NCBI GenBank assembly: GCA_963971425.1
Contig: OZ020525.1
Span: 3,083,560 to 3,147,559 of the forward strand
Source: Bryoerythrophyllum caledonicum
Lineage: Eukaryota; Streptophyta; Bryopsida; Pottiales; Pottiaceae
DNA: 64,000 bases
Direction of reading: 5' to 3'
A program made the position numbers and the translations under genes. This document shows, one piece after another, positions 1 through 63,061 of the stretch. The stretch's first letter is position 1. Each line of letters opens with the position of its first letter. Below the pieces are notes generated by a model. That model did no database searches. It was not told the DNA's origin and was given only the letters and a program-made list of their open reading frames with translations.

Positions 1-380
1 CTAACTCCAGCTGGGAGTGTAGTGTGCATGTTGCATGACGATGATCTATGAGGAGTATGGACATGGGTTGGGGTAGAGATTGTAGAATCTAAGAGTCCAT
101 ATACCCGATACTGACCTGGGGAAAGTTTAAACACTCTCTGCGATCCCACGTCCACAACGTGCTGCATAGCGATGGTATGAGTGAGCTCCGAGGTTGCCTC
201 GTCGTAGACTTTTTCCTCAATTTAGATACTGTCTTGCAAGAAAGAGAATCTGAGACTCAATAACAAGGAAGTCACCGATGCAACGCCATCACTATCTAAA
301 CGACAAGTAAGTGGCATGCCTACGCCACTGGCACGAAGAAAAACAAGTGAAGACGCTGGAGCTTGGGAAGAAGAAGCCAT
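1..380 (-). pseudogene. partial unrecognised coding region with in-frame TAA
   Basis: Read on the minus strand from an ATG at 378-380, the frame runs MASSSQAPASSLVFL... to a TAA at 222-224. It then stays open in the same frame from 221 to the window edge, beginning IEEKVYDEATSELTH and including QHVVDVGSQRVFKLSPGQYR. About 120 codons with a single stop are unlikely by chance, so this may be a 5' part of a gene leaving the window, broken by a nonsense codon, or one with an intron near 222 that I cannot place. I do not recognise a family. No neighbour clarifies its role. Confidence 0.3.
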
Positions 381-464
381 GACGAGGGAATGAGAGGAAG
401 TGAGTGTCTGTGATGCAAGCGAAATTGGTTGGCTCAAATACTGACCTTGGCAGTGTTGTGGCAA

Positions 465-913
465 GATTAAACTAATTTAAAGAGTTTGTAGAGAACGGCG
501 CACGCATAAAATTAGTGAGAACTTTAAATTCAATTTTGGAGAATAGTCATTCTAATGCAATGGAATTAGTAGACGGCGTGATATATATATAGAGTTTAGC
601 AACGAGGCATAGCCTAAATACTGCACGATTCAAATTGTTTAATAGAAGTGGGTGGTGAAAATTGTGTGGAAGTGTCAGATAGTTTAACCACATATTAGAG
701 TCCTTATAAAGAAGGCCGCCATTTTGACGTAAATTTGACTAAAACTAGTGTATAGAGGGTTGAGCTTTTTAAAGCGGACAGGTCGTATTGGGCGCACGAT
801 ATCTACACCTGAAGCAAGGAGAAAGGCAGTAAATCGTGTGCCAGGAGTGGGGAAGTCTACACTATTGAACTGATGCTAGGAACGAGTTGTAGAGGATAGT
901 CCATTTAGATCAG
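465..913. other. non-coding, nothing recognised
   Basis: No convincing coding sequence on either strand. The stretch is moderately AT-rich, includes a short TA dinucleotide run near 580-590, and could contain promoter sequence for flanking genes, but I see no clear element. Confidence 0.4.
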
Positions 914-1138
914 ATGCCAAAGAGAAAGAAACGGGCGGCCCAATTCTCTACCTCGAAACAACTGAAGGCGTCACAGGAGTCGCGAATGCGGAGGTACGCG
1001 GGCTTAGAGGGTACAACTAGAATATTAGGTCCGGAGTTTGCGAAGCTGGACGTAGTGACAACGTCGAGGCAAGCAGCGGCTGATAAGGAGCAGGAGGTTC
1101 AAGTTTCGATGAACGATGCGCGTGTTTCAGAAACGCAG
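914..1138 (+). CDS. small basic ORF, possible first exon of the ParB/MTase-like gene
   Basis: ATG at 914 opens 75 codons starting MPKRKKRAAQF, a lysine/arginine-rich start that looks like a nuclear localisation signal, followed by a polar segment. After VSETQ (codon ending at 1138) comes GTACAC, a possible splice donor in phase 0; without splicing the frame stops shortly after at 1150. A phase-0 acceptor (TTGCAG) lies at 2029-2034 directly before an ATG that opens the acidic exon of the next gene, so this could be its first exon with an 896-base intron. Against this, a TATA box at 1731 fits independent initiation for the downstream gene. No family is recognised. Confidence 0.3.
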
Positions 1139-1149
1139 GTACACGCTTG

Positions 1150-1730
1150 ATTTGTTGCGAGGGAGTGATTGAAATTGCATCTTCTGAGAGCGTCATACGT
1201 GTCCCGTGAGTTCGTTTTTAGAAAGCTATCATTTGAGACGATGCATTTGATAGTGGGTGAGTCAATTGAAATGCAAAGAGTTTTCTTGATGGGGGAGGGG
1301 ATTAGACTTTGACGGCTTTAGTAGAGGATAATTATGGTGTATGATGGACTTCAATGTCGATGCGATTAAAAATGAGTAATATGATGTTAAGGTGAGGACG
1401 GTGGTAAAGTATGAATAAGGACAAGTTGGGTAGTGGCCAAAAATGATGTTGAAGTGGAAAGTTATGTCGATTGCTTGACTTGTAAGCGAAGTCAAAATGA
1501 TGAATTTTAGACATAATGGATACGTGTACTCTCTAGTGACGGCTTAAGTCGCGACCGATGCTGACGGCTCTCTCATGGTACGTCTAATTAGAAGCCCTAA
1601 GAAATGACGGTTGTGTGAGATGGGTTGTGAAATTAATTATTGGGTTGTTGATGGAAGGGTTGAGGTCATAATGAGTTGAATTGGATGAGTTGGGTAGTGG
1701 CGGAGGTTGACGGCTCACCCCAACCATAGT
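1150..1730. other. non-coding, intergenic or intron
   Basis: No supported gene on either strand. The sequence is GT/GA-rich on this strand and carries short open frames without codon character. It ends at the TATA-like element at 1731. Confidence 0.4.
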
Positions 1731-1738
1731 TATAAGTA
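1731..1738 (+). promoter_or_regulatory. TATA box upstream of the ParB/MTase-like gene
   Basis: TATAAGTA lies about 290 bases before the ATG at 2023. An ATG at 1845 between them opens a 66-codon upstream frame that ends at 2042, overlapping the proposed start, so the mRNA leader would carry an upstream ORF. The assignment is from sequence alone. Confidence 0.35.
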
Positions 1739-2034
1739 GAGCGACTTCTAATGTATATCTTCTTTCATTTGTGCAACCTTGGAGGTCTTAGGTTTTCCAG
1801 TCGATAGTATTGGTTAGCAAGTTCCAGTATTCTAGTGCACAGTGATGCGGAGAAGTTCTGTGATAGAAGGGGCGCCGGTGCGTTCTATGCAGGTATTTGT
1901 AGACAAGGTTAGGAGAGACGGAATGATTAGGGTTTGGTGGGAACTGCGAGTGAAGGAACTGTGTAGTGATTCGGAGAGAACTTTTGTGAAGAGGGTACGA
2001 TATGTTTCTAACATTAGATTGAATGGAATTGCAG

Positions 2035-5000
2035 ATGGATGAAGAAGAAGCTGCCGGCGATCCGGAATTGCGCACAGTTAGTGGCTGCGAGATGGTGCAA
2101 GTCGGTGGAGAGGACGTGCGTGAAGTCGTTGTGGAAGTCGTGCACGAAGGTGGAGAAGAAGGTTTGGCGATGGCGATGCTCGACGCTGAAGAAGTCCGAG
2201 ACACCGGCGGAAGAGACGAGGCGGGACCTGGAGGCGGTAACGAAGTGGAGAAGGATGCTATAGAGACGTTGACCGAGAGTGGAGGCGAAGATGAGCAAGA
2301 GCCCGGCGAGGGACGTGATGATTCAGAAAAAGGCGACGAAGAGGAAAGCGACGGAAATGACGATCTCGACAGGATAGACGAGGAGGCGGAGAGCGAGGAG
2401 AAAGCAGGAAGTGAAGCGGAGGCGGATAGCGATGCAGCCGCTACCGGCGAGGCCCTTGTCGACCTGGGTTTATCCGACTCAAGCAAGGACATCGATGTCG
2501 GGAGAGGGTCAAGGAAGAAGGGCAAACGCAAGAGCAAGAAGAGGGAGAAGAAGGAGGCTACGCCAGACCTTGACGACGACCTCGGCCAGGATCCGGATGC
2601 CTCTATAGAGCAAGTAACGGAGCGAATTGGTATCGTGTACCACCCTGATGCATTTGCGGCGATCAATCTAATGCGGCGACTTCCGATGCCACTCACATAT
2701 TCGAATTCCATTGTGCCGCATGATTCCAATGCAGGAGCTTCGAAAAGTGCACAAAATCGAGAAGCAGAAGATGATGGCAGGCTTTGCTCATGGATATCGA
2801 GATGGTGACACCTCCTTCTACCTTGCGGTGACTGGCAAGGAAGAAATTGAGCGGCCGGTTGATGATGCGATTTTGAATTCTTGGTCCTCAGACTGGAAAA
2901 CCTTGAACGAAGAATTCGAGTCCGAGTTGGCTGACGACGAAGACCTAAAGCATCTGAGTGAGAAGATGTTGTTCATCTACGATGGCAACCACAGGTACGA
3001 GGCGTGGAAAGAGTACATCGACACGAAGAAAGCTGGTGACAAAGAATTTGTTAAGAAGAACGGGAGGCCGTTCTGCATTATACTTGACATTACACCGAAT
3101 GGGTATCCACGAATTCTTTCAGCGATGCACGCCGTCAACAAGTAAGTGTCTTTCTGAAGTTGCAAGATTTGCAAGCTTATCAAGTTTTTCTGCTAATGAC
3201 CGCTGTTTTGTTAGGGCAAACGAGACAAACCATGTCGTTACGAATGTCATGCACCAACTTGACCGGGTGCATTTATACGTCACTCGGCCACTAGAGTACT
3301 ACAAGGACTTGATCCCGCCCCATCGATATGAAATGTGCGTTAAAAAGCCCAGCACTACCTGGTACCCGATTCCCGCTTCGCAGATGGTGAAAGTGCTATT
3401 CCAGGTATTTCTCATTCCATACATTCCAACATCTTACTAATTTGAATTTGAAGCTCATTCTTGCTTACGGCGTTTTTGCAGGACGAGTTGCATGAAACCG
3501 CAGTAAAAGAGCGACTTGCGTATCTAGCAGAGACTCCAGAGGACGAACAGACTGGACGAGGTATGCAAGAATATATGGAAGGCCAGATCCGTCTGAAGCG
3601 TGATAAGCTGACGAAGAGGTTTGGCAAGCTTGCTGGGGTGGCAAACCCAGCTAACGGAGATAGCTTTCTTGACGAGGTGACCATACATTCAACCTTTAAT
3701 CATCATTTTTGAATGTAATTTTGAATCCAATTTGTTTAAAAATATTTCAAATTATTTACAACAAACTAGGAGCCATAGTGAATTATTAGGCTCACTTAGA
3801 CTACTAGGCTTTATATGAGACGATTTCCAAGTTTAGTGAACTGCTGGGACCACCTCGTGCAAACCTCCACTTCGATCATGTGAGGGTACCCAGGGTTGTC
3901 TGGGTACCACCCAGCATACCCTCTCGTAACGAGAGGGTATGTTGGGTGGTACCCGGGTGACCCTTGGTACCCGCTCGGAATCGGGAGGGGACTCGACCTG
4001 GTGGTTCCCGCTCGATTCCGAGTGGGTACCCGATGTCGCCCGGGTACCACTAGGGGTACCCTCTCGCTACGAGAGGGTACTCTCGGTGGTACCCGGGGTC
4101 GTCCGGGTACCACCGGGAGTACCCTCTCGTTACGAGAACGTACTCTCGGTAGTACCCGGGCGTCAACGGGTACCCTCTCGGAACTGAGGGGGGATCAACC
4201 GGAGGAGTCCCCCTCCGGTTCCGAGAGGGTACCCGGCGTCACCTGGGTACTACCGAGAGTACCCTCTCGTTACGAGAGGGTACTCAGGTTGATACCCGGA
4301 CGACACCGGGTACCCTCTTAGAATCGGCAGGATGACTTAATATAGTATCACCTAGTTCCGGGAGGGTATCTGGCGTCACCCGGATACAACAGGGAGTACC
4401 CTCTTGTAACGAGAGGGTACTTTTCGTGGAATTCGAGTGACGCCGGGTACCCATTCGGAATTGGTCGTGACAATTTCACGTCGTCCTTGCTCAAATTTTA
4501 GTGGGTCTCTATCGTCTATTGGGTACCATCAAACATACCCTCTCGTTACAAGACGGTATGCGGAGTGGTTCCAGGGCTACTCCCAGTACCCTCTTTAAAT
4601 CGAGAGAGGTCCACCTGTTCGAGTCTCCCCCTGATCCTCAGAGGGTACCCGGTGTCGCCCGGGTCCCACCTGGAGTACCCTCTCGTTACGAGAGGGTACT
4701 TCCGGTGGTACTTGGGCGACACCGGTTACCCTTTTTGGATCGGTGGGGGACTCGACCGGGTGGACCCCCCTCTCATTTAAGAGGGTGTTTGGTGTCGCTT
4801 GGGTACAACCGATAGTACCCTCTCGTTACGAGAGGGTACTATCGGTGTTACTCGGTCGACGCCGGGTACCAGCACGGGATCGTGAGAGGACCACCCGGAC
4901 GAGTCCCCTCCCGATTTCGAGACGGTATCCGGCGTGGTCTGGGTACCACCCAGCATACCCTCTCGTTACGAGAGGGTATGCTATGTGGTATCCAGTACAC

Positions 5001-7874
5001 GCCGGGTACCACCAAAGTGCCTAGAAAACATCTAAATCTTGTTGTCTGGGTGCGAGTATTAGCTGCTTGTGTCGTCGGAAAATTTACTTCTCTTAATATG
5101 ACTTGAGTTTTCTTCCTTTGATTATGTCACACCACCAAAGAAAAACACAAGGCGGTACTAATTTTGTGTTCATTTGAATAACGAAACAGGTTCGTAAGAA
5201 CTACGACCGGCATAACTTAGACCGAGTGGAGATGGGGCTTGAGAAGCTTCAGCTCATGGCCACAACAGTTGTTCCCTCCAAGTATAAGGTCCTGTGGCTG
5301 AGGATGTGGAACGAGTCGGACTTTCAGCGAAAACAGAATCACTTTCCTGAGTATCCTTGCTCTGAAGCGGACCTTAAGAAGTTCCTGGCACGAGCGGTCT
5401 TCTATGCGTGGGTACGTCTAGTTTCTGCTCCTGATAATCTTCTTGTTTTCTCATGTATTCATCACGCATTCTTGTTCATCTATTACAGCTTCAGGAGGAT
5501 CTCGGGCCAAAGATGGTTGATCTCCTAGGCAATCTTGCACTGAACCCCCATCCGAGAGAGCAACCACTATCCTGGATGGAGTACTTGGCGATGTGGAAGC
5601 TCCGCTTGTGGGACCATGCGTACAACAGCCACTTTCTGGCAGAGTCTCCATTCACTCGACTATCGAAATGGGAGGACGTCAAGGATCGCGGAGATATCGC
5701 AACCCGGTTTGCCTACCGATATATCAAGCATGAGCTTCTTGAAAAAGGTGCAATATCCTCTCTACCACTCTGGATGCACATAGCGTACTCAACGTCGTCC
5801 AGCTCTTGCATGTACTCTACGTATCAATTGTCTTTGTTTCCGTTGGATCATCGCAAGGACTGCCACTGGTATGTTGAATGTCACAAGAAGTACTGTCATG
5901 AGGAAGAGCTATTCATGAAGGAGGGGCACGGTCCTCTGAATAACATCAAGGAGGACGTCCCGGAGAAGGCTGCCACAGCGAAGGAGAAGAAGAAGCGCTC
6001 AAAGCCAATGAGCCCAAACACAAGACGTCTACAAGCCAACAAGAAGGCTAAGGAGCGACGTGCTAAGATGAGAGAGGCGAAAGGCAAGTCTGCTGCGGAG
6101 GAGGACTTGGAAGAGGAGGATGATCTTCAGGTAATTGAGGAATCAAGATTTCCCGAGTCCTCCATCCGTGAACATGGAGTCGCTAGCATTGCTCTAGGCG
6201 TCTCGACACCAACTCGCGTCACTCTGTCGGATGATAGGCCAATGGAGGTTGAAGTATCATTACAGAAGGAGATCCCCGTACGCCCTAGCACGGAGCCAAC
6301 ACCAGCGGAGGATTCAGATGTTGCTCCCTTAATTTTTCGACGTGTGCAGCCTCTTCGATCTCTGAAGTCACCCGCTGCTAATCCTACAGTGTCCGTTACG
6401 CACTCCCACTCCACATCCACGACGGTGCCGCTCGACGATCCGACCCCGAGTCTTAACATCACCTCCTCGAGTTACACGATCCCTGGTGGCGCAGATCCAA
6501 CGTCGACACAGCTTATCATGAACGAGTCAATGTCACGTGATGTTTGGAATGAGATCTCAGACTTTGTCACTGATTGCAATGACGGAAAGACTTGCCTACT
6601 GCGAGGGAATGTCGTTCAAAAGGGGCAAAGGGTGGACCTCGTCCTTGCGCAAGTACCGGACAATCTTCCTGTGCCGGATGTGTCGGTAGTTCGAGATGAA
6701 GTCCCCGGTTGGAACATCCTTTCCACTGGCTGGATGAAGATGCTCTTTGGTTTTGCCAACGTCTTCTTGCATGACGATGGCGGTCTATTTTTGACGTTTT
6801 CTGATGACAAGGACAAGATGATGCAGATCTTTAAGGCGCACTTCCAGGGATTCGGATTCAAGATCATGAAGGAGTGGGTCGGTGTGAACAGACTACCAGA
6901 AAGATCCGCTGCTGCGGCTTCTGGGACCACCAACTTGTTCAAGGTTGACTTCTTGTGCGTGTTAACTCTCTTCAAGGTCCAGTCAAGGCGTACCGCAAAT
7001 CAAACTTCCATTTTCGAAAGCACCCGGCGCTTGAAGAGCTCTCACTGGATATTGCTAGGAGTGATGCCATCCTCAATTTTGTGAGTAAGGAGACACTCAC
7101 TCGGACTGCTCATCGGGTGTGGCGTGGTGCAAAAGAACGTGGTCTGCACTTCTACACGTCGTTGATTCTATCTGCATCAGACGAAGGGGACGTCGTAGTT
7201 GACATTACCGCCGCTATAGGTACGCCTATGAATTTCTCAGTATTTTTTTTTCATTTCAATCACGCGCGTGTTCACTATGTCTGCTATTTTTTCAGGAAAC
7301 TCTATTCGAGTCTGCAAGGATTACGGTCGTCACATCGTTGCGTTGGAGGCCGATGCGGAGGTATTTGAGGCCGTTCTGAAGCCTCTCACTATCCAAGTCC
7401 CTGCGATGCACGTCGAAGACCACATGGATGTATCTGACGACGAGTCTGACCAGTTGACTCTACCCTCCGACATACCAAGTGTCATTCCAGATGTTGCCGA
7501 CATGGACTTTGAGCCCCCCCCAAAGCGTGCCAAACAATCGAAGCCGTAAGTAGGTGAAACTCAACAGTACCTTCTCCAAGAACGTTATTGATGTCATAAT
7601 TTTCTTCTTTATCTCGGCATTGGTTTTCATAGACTCTTCTTTTGACTGCAGACGTCATTTCTCTGTAACTCAAAGTCCCGAACGTTTTCCTTTCTTGCCC
7701 GTATACGCGCGAGATATGGGCAATGCATTAGCGGCTTCTGATTTTCCACCTTCTCGTCATAGAAGGCAGCGTTTTGATCCAGAAGTATATAAATTTCTAG
7801 ACATTCAGGCTGAGGAAGACAATGACTTTGACACTCTCTATGGGTCAGATAAATGTTCTGCAAGCGAATCTTAG
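2035..7874 (+). CDS. ParB/Srx-like plus degenerate DNA methyltransferase-like protein, 7 exons
   Basis: Exons: 2023 or 2035 to ~2710-3141 (with a frame change), 3215-3404, 3482-3676, 5190-5411, 5489-7219 (frame change near 6940-6957), 7296-7545, 7652-7874. Donors and acceptors fit GT-AG and their phases match (for example AA|G = Lys at 3141/3215, CC|A = Pro at 7545/7652). The N-terminus is acidic (E/D-rich) with a lysine-rich patch. RMIPMQELRKVHKIEKQKM followed by LFIYDGNHRYEAW resembles a ParB/sulfiredoxin-like fold with its DGNHR motif. Near the C-terminus, VDLVLAQVP sits where class beta amino-methyltransferases have DPPY, GGLFLTF follows, and VVVDITAAIGNSIRVC...GRHIVALEADAEVF matches motif I with its GR..IG.E continuation, but FxGxG and DPPY are lost. 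So it is probably not an active methylase. It could be a domesticated mobile-element protein or a decaying pseudogene, since two frame changes are visible. Confidence 0.6.
3677..5189 (+). repeat. intron 4 holding ~140 bp palindromic tandem array (about 3880-5015)
   Basis: The intron between the exon ending SFLDE and the exon starting VRKNYDRHN is 1513 bases. A palindrome TACCCTCTCG-TTA-CGAGAGGGTA or close variants starts at 3917, 4057, 4120, 4260, 4397, 4536, 4676, 4816 and 4956; spacing is 137-140 bases except one 63-base step. Each unit also has a GGTACCCGG.../...CCGGGTACC palindrome and a third around GGACTC...GAGTCC, so transcripts could fold into a series of strong hairpins. The array is far more GC-rich than the surrounding DNA. 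Apparent reading frames here are by-products of the repeat. Confidence 0.9.
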
Positions 7875-9007
7875 CGTCGTGGTTATTTAAAACATACTAG
7901 TGATGCATCATTATAGATTTCTTCATTTTTTGGGAGATTGCAACAACAGTATAATTCCTAGACAAGGCATAGTCTATATTTGCTTAATTATGGCATCAAA
8001 ACAATTTTGCGTCAAGGAGGTGTTTAAAATCACACAAATAACACTAACTTTTTGCTATCTTCGTTTCATATTGAAATTTCATTGGAAATGGTGAACATAA
8101 AGATAATCATTATTTTTTGACGTAGGATGAATGATTAAACAAAATTGTGCAAAAAATTGTAAAAAATTCTCTCTAATTTAAGTGGAAGAATATGCAATCA
8201 CAACAGGCACCCGACCCAATAACACACCAAACCTTACATTCAATTCACTGTTTTGTCGACGTGGATGCTTTTTCGTGGTTTAGGGTGGATTCATGATTCC
8301 TTGTTTGTAGATCCACACTACATAAACCTCTTCATGATAATTACGAAATCAACTACTTTGAATCTAAAAGACGGTATAATAGTTCAACCCTAACCTCATA
8401 TCCAAAAACTTAAGCTCGAAATCTTCTAAATGCGCAACACTAAATGTGTATCAACCATTAACAACCATGTTGCACCTATGACATCACTATTAGAAGTTCG
8501 AGAGTATGTAATTGGCCGTTTGCGTCCATGATTTGTGAAAGGTTGGCAATTTATAACTATACAAAGAGGCAATTCCAATGATTAAGGTGACGTTGTACCA
8601 TCGATTTAAAGTTTTAGGCCGCCGTCAATCTCCCCACACTCAAGTCATGGCTTTTAATTAAGCCCGGCCATAACCATCTAATTCACCATTAATTGTACCT
8701 TGATAGCTCGCGGCCATAGTCCCTACTTATGACCGGCTTTATTATCATTTGACACCCCATGATTGTGTACAACCGTGATGGAATTTTTCGTGCACGCGTC
8801 ATTTGCCACGACACACTTAGAGCACTTCTAATGATTCATGTACAACGTTGATGGGATGTTTCAAGCTCGCGGCCATTGCCCTCACACATGTTAGTACAAT
8901 CATGATGAAGTTTTTCAAGCACGCCGTCACTCTTGCTTTGGATGGGATGTTCTAGTGTAAAATTATGAAAGCCTAGATTAATTATGACTGGTTTGCATGT
9001 CGGTGCG
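7875..9007. other. non-coding, with imperfect ~60 bp repeats
   Basis: No gene is supported. Between about 8755 and 8945 three imperfect copies of a motif like GTACAAC.TGATGG.ATTTTTC.AGC.CGC.GTCAT recur with a period of roughly 55-75 bases, and GCTCGCGGCCAT appears at about 8706 and 8863. The function is unknown. Confidence 0.45.
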
Positions 9008-9014
9008 TATAAAT
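9008..9014 (+). promoter_or_regulatory. TATA box for the small acidic gene
   Basis: TATAAAT lies 63-69 bases before the ATG at 9077, a normal distance for a core promoter plus short leader. Confidence 0.4.
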
Positions 9015-9076
9015 TGAAAGATCGGAATGGCTAATGCATCTTTTATTTTGCGAGGAGTTTTTAGTTGTTAGTGAAG

Positions 9077-9566
9077 ATGGTAGAGACTCGCCATATGGCT
9101 TGTGTTCGTAGAGAGAGAGAGGCTATGGATTTGCAGCTTCAAGCCGAGGATTTTAGCGATGAGGGAGGTGTCAAGGAGGAAGGGGACAACATATCGACAA
9201 CCAATGTTGATGTAGTTTCTGTAGGACTTGATGGCTCCCGGGTTCAATTGCACCGACATGTTTGACATTTTTAACGACAAGGGTGTAGACTACTTTGGTT
9301 ACTGTCGTGAGTATTCCGACGATGAGTGTGTCGGTGGCTGTGTTATGCGCGAAGCGGAGGACCACTGGCGATCGGAGATGGATGTGGTGGAGTCTTCCGA
9401 CCTCGAGTTTGGCGATGGCAATGCGAATCTCGAAGACGACCTGGGATTCGAGTCAGATCAAGCAGAGTCATCTGACGATGGGCATGCGTTCATGTATGGT
9501 GGTTGCGATACTGGCTCTGATGTAGACTCTGATATGTACGCGCCGTCTTTCTTGAAGGACCGCTAG
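9077..9566 (+). pseudogene. small acidic protein, two overlapping frames
   Basis: The ATG at 9077 (MVETRHMACVRREREAMDLQ) leads through an acidic segment to a TGA at about 9263. A second frame, open from about 9228, continues with FNCTDMFDIFNDKGVDYFGY and a long D/E/S-rich tail ending LKDR at 9566. Both halves share the same acidic character, so a one-base frameshift (or a missed splice) between about 9228 and 9262 is the simplest explanation. The Asp/Glu/Ser-rich tail looks like an unstructured nuclear protein, but there is no recognisable domain. It lies just upstream of the F-box-like gene on the same strand and could belong to it. Confidence 0.35.
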
Positions 9567-9735
9567 ACAGTTTTCAGAGTACTCTATCTTCTGAGTAAAG
9601 ATGTTCATAGTTGCCTTCCAGACCTGTATATGTTTCCATTATGGCAATTTGAAATCTTATCGTTCTTTGCTACTTGATGTTTTAATATTTTCAATTGCAC
9701 TTGAGATCATGATGGTGCATCTATTTTATTGCCCC

Positions 9736-9821
9736 GGACTTACCTTTCAAAGTCATGAGTTGATAGCCGCGGACTCACCCTTCAAAGTCATGAGTTGATA
9801 GCCGCGGACTCACCTTTCAAA
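9736..9821 (+). repeat. 35 bp minisatellite, 2.5 copies
   Basis: The unit GGACTCACCTTTCAAAGTCA...GATAGCCGC starts at 9736, 9771 and 9806 with a 35-base period and few differences. It lies upstream of the F-box-like gene. Confidence 0.8.
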
Positions 9822-9849
9822 TGCTTGCTTGAACAATCACTAGTTCACT

Positions 9850-9933
9850 TAGTTTCGTGGAGAGGTATATTTGCCGCTAGTTTGTGGAGAGGTGTATTTG
9901 CCGCTAGTTTGTGGAGAGGTGTATTTGCCGCTT
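9850..9933 (+). repeat. 27-28 bp minisatellite, 3 copies
   Basis: The unit TAGTTTGTGGAGAGGTGTAT followed by TTGCCGC starts at 9850, 9878 and 9905. It lies about 100-180 bases before the start codon of the F-box-like gene, in its probable promoter or leader. Confidence 0.8.
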
Positions 9934-10028
9934 TCAATGACATAAGTTGATGTGCCGCTAGTTCTCGTCTTCTACCGGTCGCGGCAGTGGACAGTTCTTT
10001 TCGTTTGTTGGTGAAGCTCTCGGAGGAC

Positions 10029-11834
10029 ATGCCTTCTACCGCCATCGAAGCTCTCGCAAACCGAGGTGAGTTTCGGGAGCTGCACTTTGTGGTCTTCAAA
10101 GTCTTGTTTTTTTGTTGTGTTCTTGTTCGCCGTTGTTTTTTTTTTTGTGGTTTGCGGCTCCGTCTTTGGAGATGCATCCAGGGCGCTTGCCTTGGAGTTC
10201 GATGAGTACCCTCTCGTTTCCGAGAGGGTACACTTTGAAGCTCCAGAACAAGTGCTCTACAAGCAACTCCGTCAATGGAGTTGCATCCAGGGCATGGCTT
10301 GCCCTGAATGCAACTCCATTGACGGAGTTGCTTCCAATGCGCTTGCCCTGGAACTCATCGAAGTTCCAAGGCAAGCGCCCTGAATGCACTCCGTCAGTGG
10401 AGTTGCATCCAGGGCATGCCTTTCCCCGAATGCAACTCCATTAACGGAGTTGCTTCAAAAGCGCTTGCCATGGAACTCATGGAAGTTCTAGGGCAAGCGC
10501 CGTGAAAGAAACTCTATGGAGTTGCATCCAGGGCATGGCTTGCCCTGAATGCAACTCCATTGACGGAGTGCATTCGGGGCGCTTGCCCTGGATGCAACTC
10601 CATGGTGTTGCATTTTTGGCAAACACCCCGAATGCCCCTCCAAGAAGTTGCATTCAGGGCATGGCTTGCCCTGAATGCAACTTCATGGACTTGCATTCAG
10701 GGCATGGCTTGCCCTGGATGCAACTCCATGGTGTTGCATGTTTGGCAAACACTCTGAATGCTACTTCAAGAAGTTGCATTCAGGGCATGGCTTGCCCTGA
10801 ATGCAACTTCATGGACTTGCATCCGGGGCATGGCTTGCCCTGGATGCAACTCCATGGAGTTGCATTTTTGGCAAACACCCCGAATGCCACCTCAAGAAGT
10901 TGCATTCAGGGCATGGCTTGCCCTGGATGCAACTCCATTGTCAGAGTTGTTTTCGAGATGATTGCCCTGGATTTACTTGAGTACCCTCTCGTTTCCGAGA
11001 GGGTACGCACTGTAGCTCCAAAGCAAGGGCCTGGAAAAACTATCAATGTTGTTGCATTCAGGGCATGGCTTGCCCTGAATGCATCCTCATTGATAGAGTT
11101 TCTACACGATTCTTGACCTGTAGCTACAGTGAGTACCCTCTCGGAAACGAGAGGGTACTCTCTAATTCATTGCAATCACCTTGGATGCGAGTGTTGTTAT
11201 AATCTTTTTAGTTTCAAAGATTCTGTTCAGTTCCTACTTGTGTTGAGTTCTCATAGTGGTGAACTGTTTCTAATGTTTTTTTTTGTCAGACCCTAGCGTG
11301 GATTCCAGGTTGAATGCCTTGTTGATCCCGGGCTTGGAAGACGATGTTGTCTTGGGATGCATTTGGCCACGCATCGCTAGGTCAGTGCATATGATCAACC
11401 ACCGCACTCCTGATTCTGGCATCCGCGATGTTGTTGATTGCATTTACTCCATTCGGCAGTTTAGTGCCCGATGGTGGTCACTTGTTGAGGGTTCTTTGGA
11501 GGTCACAACTGTGAGAGCTTCGCTATACATGGCTCTGGTTTACGGTGGCCGTGGAGATGGCCCTGGACCTCGACACATTTGGATTCCTCACTTTTGGCGG
11601 AGTTTTACTCGCAATCTTTTATTGCTGGGTGCGCGGACGGTTATTCCATTGCCATTTGATGCAACGCTGCTTCGACCAGTGCGGACGCTGTCGGCATTTC
11701 AGCTTCACCAATTGATCGTCATGTTACGGAGGGCCGTTCGTCGCAACGAACGGAACGGCCAATCGCCAGTTTTACTTGGCAGCACAAATGTATGGCAACC
11801 ACTTATGCGTTCGGACATTGATGTTGAGTACTAG
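10029..11834 (+). CDS. F-box-like protein, two exons
   Basis: Exon 1 (10029-10065) encodes MPSTAIEALANR plus the first base of an Asp codon, and ends at GTGAGT. Exon 2 (11290-11834) follows a T-rich tract and TCAG. The phase-1 junction restores GAC and gives ANR-DPSVDSRLNALLIPGL. The segment ALLIPGLEDDVVLGCIWPRI, followed by a W-containing stretch (SARWWSLVEGS), resembles the F-box of plant kelch-type F-box proteins (LIPGLPDD...L.C...), which would bind a SKP1 subunit of an SCF ubiquitin ligase. No kelch repeats follow; the last ~100 residues are unrecognised. Total about 194 residues, shorter than usual. Translation could start a little upstream in the same frame. The family call is an inference from a short motif. 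Confidence 0.5.
10066..11289 (+). repeat. F-box gene intron packed with hairpin repeats
   Basis: This intron holds repeated hairpins with the core GGGCATGGCTTGCCC flanked by GTTGCATTCA/TGAATGCAAC, starting at 10290, 10531, 10657, 10700, 10783, 10826, 10909 and 11061, plus a degenerate one at 10412. From 10657 to 10909 spacing alternates 43 and 83 bases, a 126-base unit. 10264-10330 is a near-perfect 67-base palindrome. Three copies of TACCCTCTCG-N4-CGAGAGGGTA lie at 10207-10230, 10982-11005 and 11134-11157. Because 126 is a multiple of three, a long open frame arises that is not a gene. Confidence 0.9.
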
Positions 11835-11932
11835 TCTTAGTGCCGACATAGAGTGAATTTTGACATTCCATTTTTGTATACTGGTTTCAGAACTTCATAT
11901 TTTGATTTCGGCTTTTTATTTTTCGTTTACAA

Positions 11933-11991
11933 TGACGTCAACACTTTTTTTTTGCACTGAGTTCTTTTGATAATAGTTCACGATGACGTCA
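11933..11991 (+). promoter_or_regulatory. two TGACGTCA palindromes upstream of RING gene
   Basis: TGACGTCA occurs at 11933-11940 and 11984-11991, about 100 and 50 bases before a TATA box. This palindrome is the classical bZIP (CRE/TGA-type) binding site in plants. Two perfect copies within 60 bases upstream of a TATA element suggest real control of the downstream gene. Confidence 0.5.
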
Positions 11992-12033
11992 GCCCTAATT
12001 TTTATGTAGTAACCAAAAAGGAAAATATTGGCC

Positions 12034-12040
12034 TATATAA
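12034..12040 (+). promoter_or_regulatory. TATA box of the plus-strand RING gene
   Basis: TATATAA lies about 180 bases before the first in-frame ATG (12218) of the coiled-coil/RING reading frame and directly after two bZIP-type sites. Confidence 0.5.
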
Positions 12041-12217
12041 AGATTTTTTTTAAAAAAGACCACGGTAGTAGGGCCCCTTTAATGCAATTTGTGCACATGA
12101 AATGTATGATTCTCCGGTCTCTTTTTCTGCTCACCGCTCTCCGCTCACCATTCTCCGCTCACATACGAGCTTTTCCCGTTGGGCATCCATGTGAGTAATG
12201 AGATTAACGTGGAATCA

Positions 12218-13924
12218 ATGTCATCCCCATTATCTATGCAGGTGACCAATGCGGATCAAAACGAAGCCATTCAGATATCAACAACATGCATGCCGCATGG
12301 TACTGTAAGTGACCATGGGGGGTTTGTTGGCAAAACAGGAAGTGATCATGAATACGAACGACTAGGCGATGCAATTGAAGGAACAAGGGCAATGGTCAGT
12401 ATTGGTGATTTGCAAGCTCATGCAGACCCCAATATTCAGGATACGTGTGTTCAGTTGAAGGCGCAATTACAAGTGCTCCGCGTGGAAACTACAAGGTTGC
12501 AATGCGATAGGGACGCTGCCGTAGAAGTTGCATTCAAAGCATGTGTGCTAGAGTCAGAGAAGGACACCATGCTTGCCGAAATGGCCATGTTACGCGATGA
12601 GCTCGACCATTCCAAGAATGATATTGGAAATTATGAAGTTGAAATCGCAGGCTTGAAAAAGGAACTAGAAGAAGTCAAAGCACAACATATTATAAACGAG
12701 GCGACATGTGCAAATTTCCAACGTGAGGTGGATGAATTAAAGGCAATTAGTGCAAACGACGAATCGAAGATAAATAAATTGACAGCCTTAGTTTTAGAAA
12801 CCGTTGCCGAGCGGGAAGAGATGATGCTTATAACGGTGTTTGCGGTGGCACGAGCACGGCAGTATGAGGCGGAATTCAAGAGCATTGTTGCCGAATGGAC
12901 GTTGGATAATAAATTGAGGACCCTCTTGCTCACATTGTGGCCTCTAGAGGAAACTATGTATTTGAAAAGTTGGGACAACATGGAGCCGTCGATACAGACG
13001 AATAACAATAGCATTGATTGGAAGCACGTCACAGAAGACGATCATCATTGGAACATTGAGGATGTGCATGACTATCCGCTAGATATGATGGGGAAGCCGT
13101 TGTGGCTAAAACCACATCCAATGACATCCGACGGATCGTCATGTCCTATTTGCGGAAATGCTTGGGGCCCAGAAGGGTGTTTTACGATTGGATCATGTGG
13201 CCATTCGTTCCATCCACAATGTCTAATCAAGAGTATGATTCGCTCACGTATGTGCAGTATCTGTAGAGCGCTATTACATCCACGTTTATATCTGCAATTT
13301 GGCATCCGGGATTTCATGCCTAACCATTGGGTGTATCGCCAAGATGATTATGATTTTGAACTTGGCGACTTCAATGGGCACCCTGTTGAGTGGAGCTGGA
13401 GGCACCATATGTCAAAGGCAGAGGTGTGGCATAAGTTTGGGGGGGGGAACTTGGAAGATGATGCAGAGAAACTAATTCAAGTTGCGAACGAGATGTATCC
13501 TGACAACTCGCTTGGGTACGGCATGAAGATGTTTTTTTATCAAACTATGGGATGGCATTGGAATCCTCAGAGGAAGGAGTTGGTGCACGGTTTAGGACCA
13601 AAACCATATTACAACTCATCTGGTGAGCGAGCGGTAGAGACCCTGGAACTACGCAGATCCTATCGTGGAACTCCTCTAGCTGTGAACACCGGTACAGAGG
13701 ACTTGTTTTGAGAAGAACGCTATCATCGTAAACGACTACTGGTGGCGGCGCTCGATGCCATATTGGATGAAGTTGCCCCGGAGGTAAAGGAATGGCTCAA
13801 TGGTGGGGACATACCTCGATATTCGGAAATGGTGATTCGCCATGAACGCCATGGATATGGGACACAGAGTAATGTTCGTGCACAAGGCGGTGACTCCTCC
13901 AACCCATCAAGACCGCAACAGTAA
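12218..13924 (+). pseudogene. coiled-coil RING-H2 protein with in-frame TGA
   Basis: The frame is open from before 12218 to a TGA at 13709-13711, then continues in the same frame to a TAA at 13924. A polar N-terminus is followed by a coiled coil (roughly residues 80-220: VQLKAQLQVLRVETTRLQ...), then a RING-H2: CPIC - 10 residues - F - GSCGHSFHPQC - CSIC, giving the C3H2C3 zinc ligands of an E3 ubiquitin ligase. After it comes the motif LYLQFGIRDFMPNHWVYRQ, shared with the minus-strand paralogue at 17512-19641. Downstream of the TGA, EERYHRKRLLVAALDAILDE and APEVKEWL match the paralogue's C-terminus, so the stop interrupts an ancestral frame. The ~200-residue N-terminal domain of the paralogue is absent. 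It is most likely a recent pseudogene or a C-terminally truncated protein; readthrough is possible. Confidence 0.7.
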
Positions 13925-17511: not shown

Positions 17512-19641
17512 TTATCTTGGTTGCGACGAGGATGCATCAGTATCGCGCGTTTGGTTTCCATGAGAAGCATGAGGCACTTCCATTCCCCGTCTCTGCAGGT
17601 TTCTCTCACGTTCTAGCCAAGCCTTGACTTCTGGGGAAATATCGTTTAATATAATGCCTAGTGCCGCGGCCCTCAGTCGTGCGTGATGGTATGTTCTTTC
17701 TTCAAGCAGATCCTCTTCTGCACTTCGAGCTTCTTGAATATCTTGCACACGTCGATATAATCGGTTGAATCCTGCAGTGGTGAGCGCCTCTACTCCCCTA
17801 GAGTTGTAATGCGGTCTGATTCCCATTTCCGGCAATAACTTCATGCTCTCTCGATCGTAATGCCACCCCATTACGTTGTAGAAAAACATCTTCAAGCCGA
17901 AATCCGGTGGTTGATTTGGATACATGCCCTCTGCCGCCTTCATTAAATTCTCTGGATCATTTAATGTGCCAGCTTCTTCATTTGCGGCAATAAGTTGTGC
18001 GGATGAGACGTTGTATCTCCAATTCCACGTGACAGGTTGTCCGACATCAACACCAATGTCAAAATCTGGGAAGTCTTCTTGGCGATACACCCAATGTCTT
18101 GGCATGAAATCCCGAAGGCCAAATTGAAGATACAAGCGGGCATGATAAGGCGATTTGCAAACCGTGCACGTACGCTTTCGTATCATATCCTCGATTAGAC
18201 ATTGAGGGTGGTACGAATGACCACATGATCCAAGCGTGAAGCACCCTTCTGGGCCCCACGGATTTTGGCAAATGGCACACCGCGATCCATCATTGGTCTT
18301 CTCATCCACGTGGCCCCATATTTTATGGACATCTCCGAGGCCACCAACCGTCTCGTGAATATTCCATCGATGATCCTCTTCGACAATATGCCCCCAGTCA
18401 ATGCTACCGTTGGCCTTAAACACTGGTGGATCTATGTCATCCCAATTGCTTGGATACATATCATCTAACGTTGGCCAAGATGTGAGTAACAATGTTCTCA
18501 GCCTACCGTTGGTTGTCCACTCAGCAGAAATCTTTGCCAACTCTGCCTCGTAGTGCTTCGCCTTTGTCGAAGCTAACACCGTGCCTAGCATCATGGTGTA
18601 CCGCTCGTTGTGGAGTTTGCTAACATCGCGTTGCAATTTAGTAACATCCGCCTCGTATTTCGATTTTTGAATGTTTGCTTCTTGTAACTCGATGCGCAAA
18701 TGGGCCATGTTGGCAACCAGATCGTTCTTCTCTGCTTCCAACGTCAATGTTTTCATCGCCGCTTCTCTTGCACGCTCCTCCATCAACGCCTTGTACACAG
18801 TAAATTCCGCATTTAATTCTTGGTATCGTTGCGATGTGCCATCTGTGATATTGATGCGCTCGATACCATGTCCCACTACCTCGGTTTGTCCAAGCCCGGG
18901 AAGTTCACTTCCACCGCTAATTGGCGTGTTCGACTCCACATCCATTGCATTGGTGTTGAGAATGGCAAGTTCATCATATAACTCTAATGGTAAATCCGCC
19001 AACTCTCGAGCTCTTGTTGCAGTAGCTCGTCTCTTTGGCAATTCTCGATCCGGTGGCAACGGTTGGTCCGGTGGATCAACCAAGCTACTGTTAGTGCGGA
19101 ACCATTCTGGAACCGGGTTCCTCGGAATGTCAATGATGGGTTGCTTCGCGGAAAGTAGCGGGCCAAGAAACTTCCCAACATTGCCACCCGCGGTTATCGG
19201 TTGGTGAATTGTTGACCAATCAACCCGCTTGTGCAACACACACTCCGCATACACCATGGCTCCTATCCTCCTCGGAATGCTATTTTTGGGCCAACGTCCT
19301 TGGTGAGAGATGGCTCGTAAAATCTCCAAGAACCTCCACTTCGAATCCACGTCGGTAATGGCATTCCACGAGAGTTGTCTGTTGCGGCAATGCTCTTTGT
19401 GAGATTCCTCCGGGTACCACCGATCGAGATGCGCAAAACCAACAAGGTTGAAAGCCTGCTGACATGTCCATGGCTTTGGCACATCTTCCCATCCATCATA
19501 CACCAATAGTTCGGTGTTTCTAAAAATATCCATCTCCAAAGGCACCCCTTTCTTCGGTTTCTTTGAGGAACCAACTTCCGCGCTTGGAGCATTTGGTCTC
19601 CTCCGGCCCGCATCATCTCCACCACGGCCTTGCATTGCCAT
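17512..19641 (-). CDS. coiled-coil RING-H2 protein, intact
   Basis: A single 709-codon frame from ATG (19639-19641) to TAA. The N-terminal ~220 residues (ELLVYDGWEDVPKPWTCQQA, FNLVGFAHLDRWYPEE) are unrecognised but well ordered. Residues ~270-370 form a coiled coil (EERAREAAMKTLTLEAEKND). RING-H2 ligands follow: CAIC, GSCGHSYHPQC, CTVC. Next come LYLQFGLRDFMPRHWVYRQ and a C-terminal helical part with SPEVKAWLERERN. The RING implies E3 ubiquitin ligase activity with an E2 partner; the coiled coil suggests dimerisation. It is an inverted paralogue of the broken gene at 12218-13924, which lacks the first domain. Upstream on the minus strand are a TATA box (20067-20074) and a dense CATCCGC array. 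Confidence 0.8.
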   Translation of the reverse strand: MAMQGRGGDDAGRRRPNAPSAEVGSSKKPKKGVPLEMDIFRNTELLVYDGWEDVPKPWTCQQAFNLVGFAHLDRWYPEESHKEHCRNRQLSWNAITDVDSKWRFLEILRAISHQGRWPKNSIPRRIGAMVYAECVLHKRVDWSTIHQPITAGGNVGKFLGPLLSAKQPIIDIPRNPVPEWFRTNSSLVDPPDQPLPPDRELPKRRATATRARELADLPLELYDELAILNTNAMDVESNTPISGGSELPGLGQTEVVGHGIERINITDGTSQRYQELNAEFTVYKALMEERAREAAMKTLTLEAEKNDLVANMAHLRIELQEANIQKSKYEADVTKLQRDVSKLHNERYTMMLGTVLASTKAKHYEAELAKISAEWTTNGRLRTLLLTSWPTLDDMYPSNWDDIDPPVFKANGSIDWGHIVEEDHRWNIHETVGGLGDVHKIWGHVDEKTNDGSRCAICQNPWGPEGCFTLGSCGHSYHPQCLIEDMIRKRTCTVCKSPYHARLYLQFGLRDFMPRHWVYRQEDFPDFDIGVDVGQPVTWNWRYNVSSAQLIAANEEAGTLNDPENLMKAAEGMYPNQPPDFGLKMFFYNVMGWHYDRESMKLLPEMGIRPHYNSRGVEALTTAGFNRLYRRVQDIQEARSAEEDLLEERTYHHARLRAAALGIILNDISPEVKAWLERERNLQRRGMEVPHASHGNQTRDTDASSSQPR

Positions 19642-20066
19642 TTTTTTCCTCTAAAATCACCACCACCACGAAATAACGTCAAGTGGCTATCCTATACTGA
19701 TTGACTAAGCCGGTAAACTAACTATTCTAATATGAAAATCCTAGCTGTAACTAAACTCCCATAAACACCCTAAAACTAACTGCTCTTCAAAATAGTGCTA
19801 AAATAACCCCAAGCATGCACTTCAAAATAGTGCTGCGTAGGAGTGCATACAAATGTTTAGAAAAAACCGGCCTTCAACAGATCTCTGACGTCTTCGGTAC
19901 CTGTTCTGTTGCCTTTGAAGACAAATTCCCCCTTGAGGGAATCAATGTCCTCAAAAGGACCACTTTTCCACCTGGAAACCCCGCACACCCGCCTTCAACA
20001 AGGAGGCAAGTGCATCAGAGCGCCCGAGAAAGTGGGAAAGAGTAACCTTGTTTTACTTCACCCTCC

Positions 20067-20089: not shown

Positions 20090-20645
20090 ACCATCGGCGA
20101 TCTGTCCGCACCGGTCCATTCGGCCCATCCGCGGCCCGTCCCAAACCGTACACGCCCCATCCGCCACCCATCCGCGCCCCATCCGCTCCCCATCCGCGCC
20201 CGTTCGCTGCCCATCCGCTCCCCACCCGCTCCCCACCCGCTCCCGTCCGCTGCCCATCCGTGTCTCGTCCGCATCTCCCAGTCCGCTCCCCATCCGCGCT
20301 CGTCCGCTGCCCATCCGCTCCCCACCCACTCCCCACCCGCTCCCGTCCGCTGCCCATCCGCGTCTCGTCCGCATACCCAAGTCCGCTCCCGTCTGCTGCC
20401 CATCCGCGTCTCGTCCGCTTCCTAGTTCCTCTCATCCGCCCTCCATCCGCCCCCCGTTCGCGGCCCATCCGCGCCCATCCGCGCGCATCCGTGCCCCGTT
20501 CGCTTCCCCGCCCCCCTCCCATCCGTACCCATCCGTTGCCCATCTACTGCCCATCCGCGCCGCATCCACTTTCGAGTATGCAACCCAGTCCGCTCCCCAT
20601 CCACTCCCATCCTCTCCCATCCGCTGCCCATCCGCTTCCACTTCT
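20090..20645 (+). repeat. CATCCGC heptamer array, left
   Basis: About 550 bases made almost entirely of CCCATCCGC, CCCCATCCGCTCC, CGTCCGCTG and close variants; I count about 21 CATCCG cores. It is very GC-rich in an AT-rich setting. It lies directly upstream of the RING gene TATA box and faces, in opposite orientation, the array at 25800-26165 on the other side of the hAT gene. Many long frames in this region are repeat artefacts. Confidence 0.9.
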
Positions 20646-22368: not shown

Positions 22369-25300
22369 TTAAGTTCGCACTCGAACTGTGGGGTCGTTTT
22401 CTTCTATGCACCGTGGATCCACATCAGACTCGTCTGTGCTCTCTTCGTCATCGGATTGAGGAGTACCACTTCTTAGTTGTAAGTTGTCGTCCCTAGTAAT
22501 GACCAACCTCCTTGTTGGACGAGATCCCTCGGCGTCAAGTAACCCATCATCATCCAAATTGGGTCTTCCATCTGATGGGTCGTAATCTTCACCAGTAAAT
22601 GGAATTGTACTACCTTGATTCCTTCGACGTCTCTTCGTTCCTCGTGTAGTTCTCCGCTGTCTATTATTGCTTATGATGCTAGTGGAAGCTACTCCGCAAT
22701 GTGGAAGAACTATAGGTACGTGGACAACCACATTGAGGTCTACATCCGAGGAGGAAGCCATTCCTCTTAATACTATTCCAGACCCCCTCCCACCACTTTG
22801 CACAACATCGCCTTGTTGATTTTGACGAGCAAGAGGTTGCCTTCGCACGCAAGGAAGTTGGCTTGACGACAATTTTGTTCCATTCCATTGTTGGGACGAT
22901 CATTATGAAGGGCTACCAATGAAGCACCAATCCCCCGTGTAGTTGTTGCACCGGTTCTACCCGCAATTACATGACTACGGGTCACCGGCCGATGTGGTAT
23001 TCCAACTTGGGAAGACACTTCGATCTCTGTGGTTCCAGCATTCCCCATAACTTCATCAAGGGGCACGGTTACCCTTCCTATGATTGAAGTCGGATTACAT
23101 TGTGGACTTGAATTGCAATTGCGAACCGACCTCGACGGCGTTAAGGAGATACAACCAGCCGTTGTAGGGACCTCCACTTCTTGATGATTCAAGATATGTT
23201 GCCCTTCATCACGAAATGATAGCGAATCACTTTGAGGTTGGGAAGGCAAGTCAACGTTTGTAGGGATCACCAAGTTCTGTAGCCCCCCTTCGTGGTCACG
23301 CCAAAGTCCCTGACCAACACAAAGTTGTCCAAACGACGGTCCATCAACATCTCCACTCGGGTTCAATGGACCTTGAACATGTTGTTGTGCTGCCTCGACT
23401 TCGTTGAAATCAAAAACCCCTATGCCTCCACCTCCACCATCACCATCAGAGTTTTGTCCATCCGAGTCCCACACGTCCTCGTCCACACGATGACCACCAC
23501 CACTGCCATCATCGGAATCTCCACTATCCAAATCCAAATTGTCTTCGTCTATGTCAAGATTACCTTCTTCGTCATTCTCGTTAGGATAACGTCCTTCCTC
23601 ATTTGCATCGTCTGGATCTTCTCCGTTGCTTTCATCATCGGAATGCACACCATTTAACTCAAGCCACTAACCAACCCTTGTCCCCCTTCGATGCCTTAGG
23701 AGCCTAGAATTTGTGTAAATGTACACGAGGTCCTCCGCTCGACTATGTTTAAGGCGATTGCGGGACTTGTTGTGTACATAGGAGTACATGCTCCAATTGC
23801 GTTTGCATGCTGATGAGGAACACACTTGAGCAAGTATGCGTCTTGCAATTATCTGCAATGCCTTTGCGCCACCTCCCATTGCATCCCATCATTCATGGGG
23901 CAATACATTAAGCACATTTGGATCCATCGAATCTACAAATGATCCTCTATTTTCAATGAAGTCTTGGTATTGGTTGAGGACCCTTCCAAAATCTTCCTCA
24001 CTCGAAACTAGCTTTCGAAGGACTTGATTTAAGATTGGTCTTGAATGCTCATTCTCATGCAAAGGGGCCCATCCTCGTAAAGAAGGGTTTAACATAGCTC
24101 CCGCCCAATGAAGGTCAGTTATCATAAGCCCCCACCTCGCGTTAAAGGCATCTAGTGCCCGTGTTGCCAATTCTTGCCCCAATTGGAAAGGGGCCCTGAC
24201 AAACCCTTGAACATAGATTTCCAAATCATGCATAACCTTCCATGCAACGCCCATAGCAGGAGCATTGCCGTCAAATACACGAAGGGTACGTACCACAGGC
24301 AACACCATGTACTGAAAATTCACACATGTATCCCAAAACCCGTTGGAGCGTATCACCTGCCGTGCAAACAAGCCTTTAATATGTGTAGCTGGGGCTTTTG
24401 TCCGCAACTCCGCCATGAAAGCATGCCATGCGTCATCAACCACCATTCTCTCTAGGGCTTGGCAAACTTGGAGGAGGCGTTCAATCATTATGAAGTTGGT
24501 TGCAAATCGTGTCTCATTGGGCATACGAATAGCAAGATCTGGTGAAAGCCTTCGGAAGATTGCTTGTAGAGCGTGGTGGTTCTTGATGAATAAACAACTA
24601 ACCCTAGCCTTCCTCACAGTCCTTTTCACCCAATTTTCTTTGCCCCAATCCTCCAGTAAAAGATCCAAGCAATGAGCAGCGCATCCCTGAACATAGAGAT
24701 GGGGAATCGCTTGCATGATGTCACGGCAAGCAGACGCCATGACTGGAGCGTTATCGGTGCATACCTGGACAACATTTTGGGGCCCAACTGTTTGCAAAAA
24801 CGGTTGGATTTGAGAAGCAACGTAGAAGTGGTCCTTATAATTCCCCGATGTATGGATGGTGCCCAGGAAAACATCCCCTTTCGTGCCTGACTGAACAACA
24901 TTTAGCAATGGCCGATTCTGAACGTTGTCCCAACCATCACTACATATTGTTACTCCATACTTTGATATAGAGTCACCCATTTTCTCTTTGATCCCCCTTT
25001 CTAGATCTGCTTGCTTGTTTGTCAACAACTTCGTACGAACGGCGTTGTAGGACGGTGGGTTGTATGCCGACATTCGTACGGGTGCAGTTTCACGAACCGC
25101 TTTTAAAAAAGCAGGGTGCCTAATGATATTAAATGGAATGTTTGCTTTGTAAAAAGCACTAGACCAAACCCTATCCAAAAGTTGTTTTGCAGAAGAGTTG
25201 AACCCCTCGGTCAAAGAAAGCTGTCGTAGCTCTCTAGGTTCAGTCTCTATCCGTGTCGGTTCCACGTCACCAGTGCTTTGCAAATTTTGAACTTGCTCCA

Positions 25301-25595
25301 CGACATTGTTCTGAGACAATGATAATAAAGGTTCCACCCGAACTTCATCCTCGCCAGCTCTGTGAAAGGATATATTGTTGGCAACATCAAGACGATCCGG
25401 GACACCCCCATCACATTCTTGAAACAACACACGCACATGTGGAGGCACCATCCTACACACTTGAACATCACGTCCTGCCTCGTTACGAGGACGGTACCCC
25501 ATGTGGGACAACATCATGTCCGCTCTATAGGACATGGTGTGAGAACAAAACCGACATTTCACTTGTCGTGCCGATCTTGAAGAAGTGAGACCCAT
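22369..25595 (-). pseudogene. hAT-superfamily transposase, decayed
   Basis: From ATG at 25595: a BED-like zinc-binding start (VKCRFCSHTMSYRADMMLSHMG), then a hAT core with DGWDNVQNRPLLN (first catalytic Asp region), VCTDNAPVMASACRDIM (second Asp), QGCAAHCLDLLLEDW (the conserved C.AH.L), and a long insertion/helical part. A TGA at 23889-23891 follows VLPHE; in the same frame it continues WDAMGGGAKALQIIARRIL, CKRNWSMYSYVHNKSRNRL and LVYIYTNSRLL, the hAT dimerisation region. A TAG at 23667-23669 interrupts again, followed in frame by an acidic tail to about 22773. A further frameshift near 22860 leads into the frame ending at 22369. Hence it encodes a DDE transposase relic. It is flanked by inverted heptamer arrays and has its own TATA box at 25783. 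Confidence 0.85.
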
Positions 25596-25782
25596 GTCTT
25601 CGTACCATAGATCCTATATAGAATTCCGACGCGGCATGGCGTCGCAAGAATGAAAGTGCCACTAAGGGCTCCTCAAACCTTCCTCAGCAGTGGGGTCTCA
25701 TGCAATGCATTCTTGTACAAAGAATCCAAGGTCTTGAAACGCACTAAGCGAGAATAAGTAAGGTCACCCTAGGAAGATAGGA

Positions 25783-25799: not shown

Positions 25800-26165
25800 T
25801 ACGGAGCATGCGGACGGCTGGGCGCGGATGAGGCAAGGTCCAGCCAGCGGACGGGCGAAGGACCTTGGGCGGATGGGGGCGGATAGGGCCTGATGGGAAT
25901 TACGGATGGGGGCGGATGGGGACTACGGATGGGGTGCGGAAGGGGGCGGATGTAGACTGCGGATGGGGAGCGGAAGGGCGGGTGGGAACTGCGGATGGCA
26001 CGCGGATGGCACGCGGATGGCACGGATGAAGGCGCGGATGGGGAGCGGGCGAAGATCGGACGGTTTACGGGGATGGAAATTGGATACGGTGCGGATACGT
26101 GCGCGGATGGGCCGCGGATGCTGTGCGAATGGGGCCCGGATGGGGAACGGATTGAGAACAGAATG
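25800..26165 (+). repeat. GCGGATG heptamer array, right
   Basis: About 15 CGGATG cores (GCGGATGGGG, GCGGATGGCAC and variants) within about 370 bases, the reverse complement of the array at 20090-20645. Short repeated motifs in inverted orientation near both ends are typical subterminal transposase-binding sites of hAT elements. Confidence 0.9.
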
Positions 26166-63060: not shown

Positions 63061-63061
63061 A

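Follow-up and report, generated by a model that had tools for sequence, protein, structure and literature searches.

A probably Mutator-like, multi-copy DNA transposon of Bryoerythrophyllum caledonicum carries a spliced gene for a degenerate methyltransferase-like protein with a probable ParB/Srx-like part

The stretch of DNA analysed here (the window) comprises 64,000 nucleotides of Bryoerythrophyllum caledonicum (Streptophyta; Bryopsida; Pottiaceae), positions 3,083,560 to 3,147,559 of contig OZ020525.1 in assembly GCA_963971425.1. A DNA transposon of 16,149 bp spans window positions -3971 to 12177 (negative positions lie upstream of the window, in the stretch designated L189) and holds a spliced gene that encodes a probable ParB/Srx-like part, a middle region and a methyltransferase-like C-terminal part. 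This gene and a transposase-like gene are arranged head-to-head, i.e., divergently. The features of the locus are the following:

1..12177, no strand: portion of the element lying in the window; the left end, at -3971 (L189:6029), is outside it
221..1, continuing in L189:6667-9999, minus strand: transposase-like gene (5' part in the window), with one in-frame stop at L189:8455-8457
914..1138, plus strand: probable first coding exon, basic (MPKRKKR...), in phase 0 into 2035; GT at 1139, AG at 2033
2035..2718, plus strand: exon, acidic and lysine-rich; frame shifted by the loss of 5 bp near 2688
2720..3141, plus strand: exon with the ParB/Srx-like GxxR; IPMQELRKVHK from 2720, DGNHRYEAW at 2981
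3215..3404, plus strand: exon, ParB-like region continued (KANETNHVV), from sequence and splice sites
3482..3676, plus strand: exon, middle region, from sequence and splice sites
3873..5013, no strand: intron array of fold-back units with six perfect palindromes TACCCTCTCG-N3-CGAGAGGGTA
5190..5411, plus strand: exon, middle region, from sequence and splice sites
5489..7219, plus strand: exon with middle region, linker and start of the methyltransferase-like domain; 1-bp deletion near 6947
7296..7545, plus strand: exon closing the degenerate motif I region (GNSIRV...GRHIVALEAD), from profile matches
7652..7874, plus strand: final coding exon, stop at 7872-7874
9078..9566, plus strand: small acidic ORF(s) from the ORF list; no Pfam match for 9225-9563
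10207..11157, no strand: right palindrome cluster in tandem repeats, with three perfect palindromes at 10207, 10982 and 11134
11274..11834, plus strand: ORF without a Pfam match, with an F-box-like look
12123..12177, no strand: right terminal inverted repeat (TIR), imperfect, compared with the left end L189:6029-6076
12178..12187, no strand: right 10-bp target-site duplication (TSD) GTTGGGCATC, with its left twin at -3981 to -3972
12188..13711, plus strand: one half of a split RING/coiled-coil host gene, the other half being L189:5369-6028 (plus strand)

The limits of the element emerge from comparison with other copies: on the left, the sequence match begins at -3970 in two of them, and on the right it ends at 12148 and 12182 in two further ones. 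Inverted termini flanked by a TSD, as in TIR transposons, are present in all three copies with both ends placed, and their 10-bp duplications are distinct (GTTGGGCATC in the window copy, TTCCAAATAC in copy C1, GGTTGGAACT in copy C11). For a further copy, C4 (L191, L198), the left end was seen and the right end was not found within the stretch examined. At the left end, all three stretches examined match the window element at 93-96%. In the 437-Mb genome, the exon stretch 5490-7084 has at least 40 scored places (43 candidates) at 83-100% identity, the window's own included. Twenty of these sister copies, taken as stretches of 10 kb each, form the set used below (21 copies when the window is counted). 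In many of them homology extends beyond the gene on both flanks; the match runs on into the upstream transposase-like gene in five copies (L175, L177, L180, L184, L185), and several others (e.g., L173, L181, L187) cease to match the window within the 5' part of the ParB-methyltransferase-like gene. In the window, insertion of the element has split a gene of a RING/coiled-coil family. The empty site rebuilt by joining the flanks has 727 open codons, with the junction after codon 220, and the rejoined frame aligns to a paralog at 17512-19650 (minus strand) with E=3.65e-166. A single domesticated gene at the window locus is ruled out by the TSDs together with this empty site.

Because of its 10-bp target duplication, the element is probably Mutator-like. 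The target duplication of MULE transposons is about 9-10 bp, and the element shares both its TIRs and this duplication length with them, but has no Pfam MULE match: the transposase-like ORFs matched no Pfam family at E-values up to 5. The transposase-like ORF ends in a SWIM-like CxC...CxH motif and has a MULE-like look. As no Pfam family matched, the label of transposase is based on position and on such motifs.

The surroundings of the element hold further repeats and genes. The RING/coiled-coil family has two members at the locus, the one at 17512-19650 and the one split by the transposon. An ORF at 23892-25613 (minus strand) matches Pfam DUF659 (E=3.9e-34), and we take it to be a hAT-type transposase; it is flanked by CCCATCCGCT-type minisatellites at 20155-20636 and 25869-26141. 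Two direct copies of 2 kb (30329-32370 and 61044-63083), 93% identical and about 29 kb apart, resemble the LTRs of a large element. Upstream of the window, a protein-kinase-like ORF occupies L189:2248-3687 on the minus strand (Pkinase, E=8e-9).

The initial annotation had described a spliced gene at 2035-7874, built from ParB/Srx-like and beta-class methyltransferase-like segments. The motifs that it quoted all reappear in our spliced model, where VDLVLAQVP lies at 6632, GGLFLTF starts at 6776 and VVVDITAAIG at 7192, and splicing itself is corroborated by the sister copies, in which GT/AG is kept at most introns (exon 3 donor and acceptor in 17/17, donor after 7219 in 20/20). The boundary at 2718/2720 is a break of frame and no intron; the remaining junctions are GT/AG. 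The probable first coding exon (914-1138), aligned in 9 of the 20 sister copies, lies outside the span given earlier. Two deletions disrupt the reading frame in the window copy. The 1-bp deletion near 6947 is private to it, being missing from all 20 sister copies. Twelve sister copies have exon-1 sequence; the 5-bp deletion near 2688 is missing from 11 of them, and L180, the remaining one, is uncovered there. The transposase-like gene of the window element also carries a stop. Among the copies examined none is wholly intact: a single one of the 20, L185, is free of stops in exon 5489-7219, and its other exons contain stops.

For the C-terminal part, the best Pfam family is PF01555 (N6_N4_Mtase), with E=5.8e-4 (20.3 bits) for the window and E=2.4e-4 (21.6 bits) for L185, neither of which reaches the gathering score of the family (26.7 bits). 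Against our own profile of 74 methyltransferase sequences the window scored 24.2 bits, compared with a maximum of 5.4 in 2000 shuffles. Given these E-values and the shuffle test, the resemblance to methyltransferases is above chance. Searches of the PDB point in the same direction: up to E=10, the window retrieved CcrM (0.15) and DpnA (1) only, both DNA methyltransferases, and CcrM (0.25) was the top of four matches of L185, the remaining three being unrelated. A tblastn search against phages returned 90 records (best E 2e-3); of the best 25 of these 90, 19 are annotated as methylase or methyltransferase and 6 are hypothetical or unannotated. The signal resides mostly in motif I and downstream of it. 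The local Pfam alignment covers profile positions 42-219 of 221 in the window and only 165-219 in L185; the motif IV half by itself gave no profile match, a PDB search with exon 5489-6958 alone found HES-1 as its best match (E=2), and neither exon 6 nor exon 2 detected relatives when scanned against viral contigs.

Global alignments (hhalign and MAFFT) place VDLVLAQVP beneath D[ML]VLTDPPY; in the global alignment VDLVLAQVP, DGGLFLTF and VVVDITAAIG stand under DMVLTDPPY, NGAIVMTA and motif I in the same order, so that motif IV precedes motif I. Yet the catalytic residues are gone. No [DNS]PP[YFW] is found in the window or in any of the 20 sister copies (L183 being partly gapped), and compared codon by codon with the window, motif IV reads VDLVLAQVPDN-like, never DPPY-like, in 20/20. 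The SAM-binding FxGxG of motif I is likewise lost, reading DITAAIG in the window and DITAA-like in all 20 copies with the first G replaced, and a HPTQKP-like motif X is missing from the alignment. Judged from its sequence, the C-terminal part derives its fold type from the beta-class DNA methyltransferases (PF01555 type) and is degenerate. Both the order IV then I and the loss of the catalytic motifs proposed in the initial annotation are thereby upheld, through the sub-gathering PF01555 match, the shuffle test, the global alignment and the sister copies.

Since motifs IV and I are degenerate in all 20 sister copies, catalysis was lost before the copies spread. The protein was nonetheless constrained: comparing the 21 copies with one another (210 pairs) gives a median dN/dS of 0.26 (5-95%: 0.14-0.43); the pairs are not independent, and broken copies push the values up. 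Paired with the window, the four nearest copies have a dN/dS of 0.38-0.57, and L185 and L186, at dS of 0.40-0.43, one of 0.12-0.13. By part, it is 0.17 for the ParB-like region (118 pairs) and, over 210 pairs each, 0.23 for the middle, 0.37 for the linker and 0.24 for the methyltransferase half. As far as such comparisons of codons reach, a catalytically dead protein has been constrained during the spread of the element. A methyltransferase that is still active with divergent catalytic residues, marking DNA or RNA of the element, would also explain why the surroundings of the SAM site are recognisable and the domain is under selection, but we consider it improbable, as all 20 sister copies have lost the residues of motif IV as well as the first G of motif I, and motif X is missing. 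The other idea of the initial annotation, a single host gene domesticated from a prokaryotic or viral ParB-methyltransferase, would agree with splicing, degenerate catalytic motifs and purifying selection. It is nevertheless very improbable, and has to give way to a gene that belongs to a DNA transposon with many copies: the gene occurs in at least 40 places of the genome, it lies within a TSD-flanked element, and its window copy is broken.

The ParB/Srx assignment of the middle part of the protein is less firm. DUF1015, the sole Pfam match below E=0.03 for this part in the searches with window and L185, was retrieved with E=0.0028 for the window, 0.013 for a longer piece and 9.2e-4 for L185; PF02195 was absent from both searches at E-values up to 10. 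A GxxR motif, described in a 2025 survey as the P motif of the ParB-CTPase fold (PMC12704722), is present as GNHR in the window and in all 14 sister copies that cover it, with single neighbouring changes in L169, L181 and L184. The ParB/Srx segment of the initial annotation has its motif, and weak profile support from DUF1015. Other searches added little: the best PDB match of exon 2 alone was HslV (E=0.87), PHROGs and NCBIfam yielded nothing beyond weak hits to unrelated families (best E 0.083 and 0.13), and a single-sequence AlphaFold2 model of exon 2 had a mean pLDDT of 36.5. With tblastn the ParB region found nothing in phages; a shorter piece found nothing in plasmids, and in phages two virion-protein matches (E 1 and 8).

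The motif itself is shared more widely. A 9-residue pattern had no match in viral contigs and prokaryote genomes, and an 8-residue pattern had 76 prokaryotic loci, where 45 ORFs read DGNHRYEA. By motif, these 45 comprise 13 Methyltransf_24-like ORFs (with a DDI motif), 24 ParB-like small proteins and 8 unsorted ORFs; Pfam confirmed the one Methyltransf_24-like ORF searched (L103) and gave no match for two of the ParB-like small ORFs. As prokaryotic ORFs with the motif fall in different groups, DGNHRYEA alone is not diagnostic. When it was held fixed and its flanks were shuffled, 147 of 3000 shuffles outscored the unshuffled sequence against a ParB-like profile (rank 148 of 3001), and on a Methyltransf_24-like profile the window ranked 38 of 3001. 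Accordingly, the middle domain might not be ParB-like at all, and its DGNHRYEA might stem from another fold, e.g., Methyltransf_24, to which 13 of the 45 ORFs were assigned, one with Pfam confirmation, and which is slightly favoured by the shuffle. We regard this as doubtful, because the sole Pfam match below 0.03 is DUF1015, named (in the printed form DU1015) among ParB-fold fusions in the survey (PMC12704722), and because the bacterial ORF L088 joins DGNHRYEA with a helix-turn-helix and a DPPY methylase part. In L088, one of the unsorted ORFs, the motif is accompanied by HTH_3 (E=3.5e-11) and a PF01555 match (E=0.0061). This ORF (L088:403-1713, minus strand) comes from a Desulfobacteraceae MAG, and relatives of it were found neither in viral contigs nor in phages. 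Weak profiles and the ranks in the motif-fixed shuffle leave the ParB/Srx assignment as probable only.

A further component of the element are its palindromes. The perfect 23-24-bp palindrome TACCCTCTCG-N3/4-CGAGAGGGTA occurs 11 times exactly in 84 kb around the locus, and all 11 occurrences are within the element, in three clusters: at -3613 and -3392, at 3917-4978 (six, in the intron of the ParB-methyltransferase-like gene), and at 10207, 10982 and 11134. Sister stretches contain between 0 and 8 of them (none in 2 of the 20), and at the element ends exact palindromes were present in one of three left-end and one of four right-side stretches. Arrays of motifs in noncoding parts of their own element are known from VANDAL transposons of Arabidopsis. 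For VANDAL21, the VANC21 motifs are reported to lie in tandem repeats, both within introns of VANC21 and VANB21 and in front of VANA21 (PMC5735166), and the anti-silencing protein of VANDAL21 as binding its motifs (PMC5735166, PMC10398659). The element described here shares with VANDAL the pairing of a transposase-like with an accessory gene, and motif arrays in the intron of the accessory gene and other noncoding DNA. In contrast to VANDAL, its accessory protein is apparently of another kind, and 23-24-bp palindromes take the place of 9-bp oriented motifs. VANDAL ends are not known to carry long terminal repeats, whereas terminal inverted repeats are found here.

Our favoured reading, which we hold with slightly more than even confidence, is that the 16.1-kb TIR transposon carries it as an accessory gene with a DNA-binding, VANC-like role. 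In the predicted protein, an NTP-binding module of ParB/Srx-like type would be followed by a middle part and then by a beta-class methyltransferase fold without motif IV (DPPY) and without the first G of motif I, and the protein would act without catalysis. A DNA-binding role is suggested by the retention of an enzyme fold minus its catalytic residues together with an NTP-binding motif; the protein would bind DNA of the element, probably via NTP-gated loading through GxxR. The repeated 23-24-bp palindromes, those of the gene's intron and those close to the two element ends, are the natural and likeliest candidate sites. Once bound, the protein would oppose silencing or aid transposition, as VANC does for VANDAL. 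Palindromes near both ends besides those of the intron, and the divergent pairing with the transposase-like gene, would also suit a structural or assembly subunit that takes no part in silencing but, jointly with the transposase, binds the subterminal palindromes and arranges the element ends. We think this rather unlikely, since the densest array lies mid-element in an intron, where it would be of no use to a factor that binds the ends only.

Going further, one may tentatively propose that the transposon captured a ParB-methyltransferase of phage type, which might then have lost its chemistry and become an NTP-gated clamp or reader on parS-like palindromes, shielding the element from silencing or handling chromatin; to this specific scenario we give limited credence. 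In the literature, fusions of a ParB fold with an N6_N4 methyltransferase are reported mainly from phages and sulfiredoxin is the commonest eukaryotic member of the ParB fold (both in the 2025 survey, PMC12704722), and Bce_0392 is cited as an example of a ParB-fold/methyltransferase fusion (PMC5512222). The ParB-PF01555 fusions of phages and prophages have the domain pair and the GxxR P motif in common with the protein described here, which differs from them in belonging to a eukaryotic transposon, in its introns, in its long middle part and in having no catalytic motifs. Among the matches listed in a literature search, no title dealt with a ParB-methyltransferase of eukaryotes or with a transposon of this kind. 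With the ends, arrays and sister copies known, the idea is testable. Silencing and the escape from it are central to the persistence of transposons, and here a prokaryote-type modification enzyme, stripped of its chemistry, was maintained under selection inside a eukaryotic transposon, beside arrays of possible binding sites.
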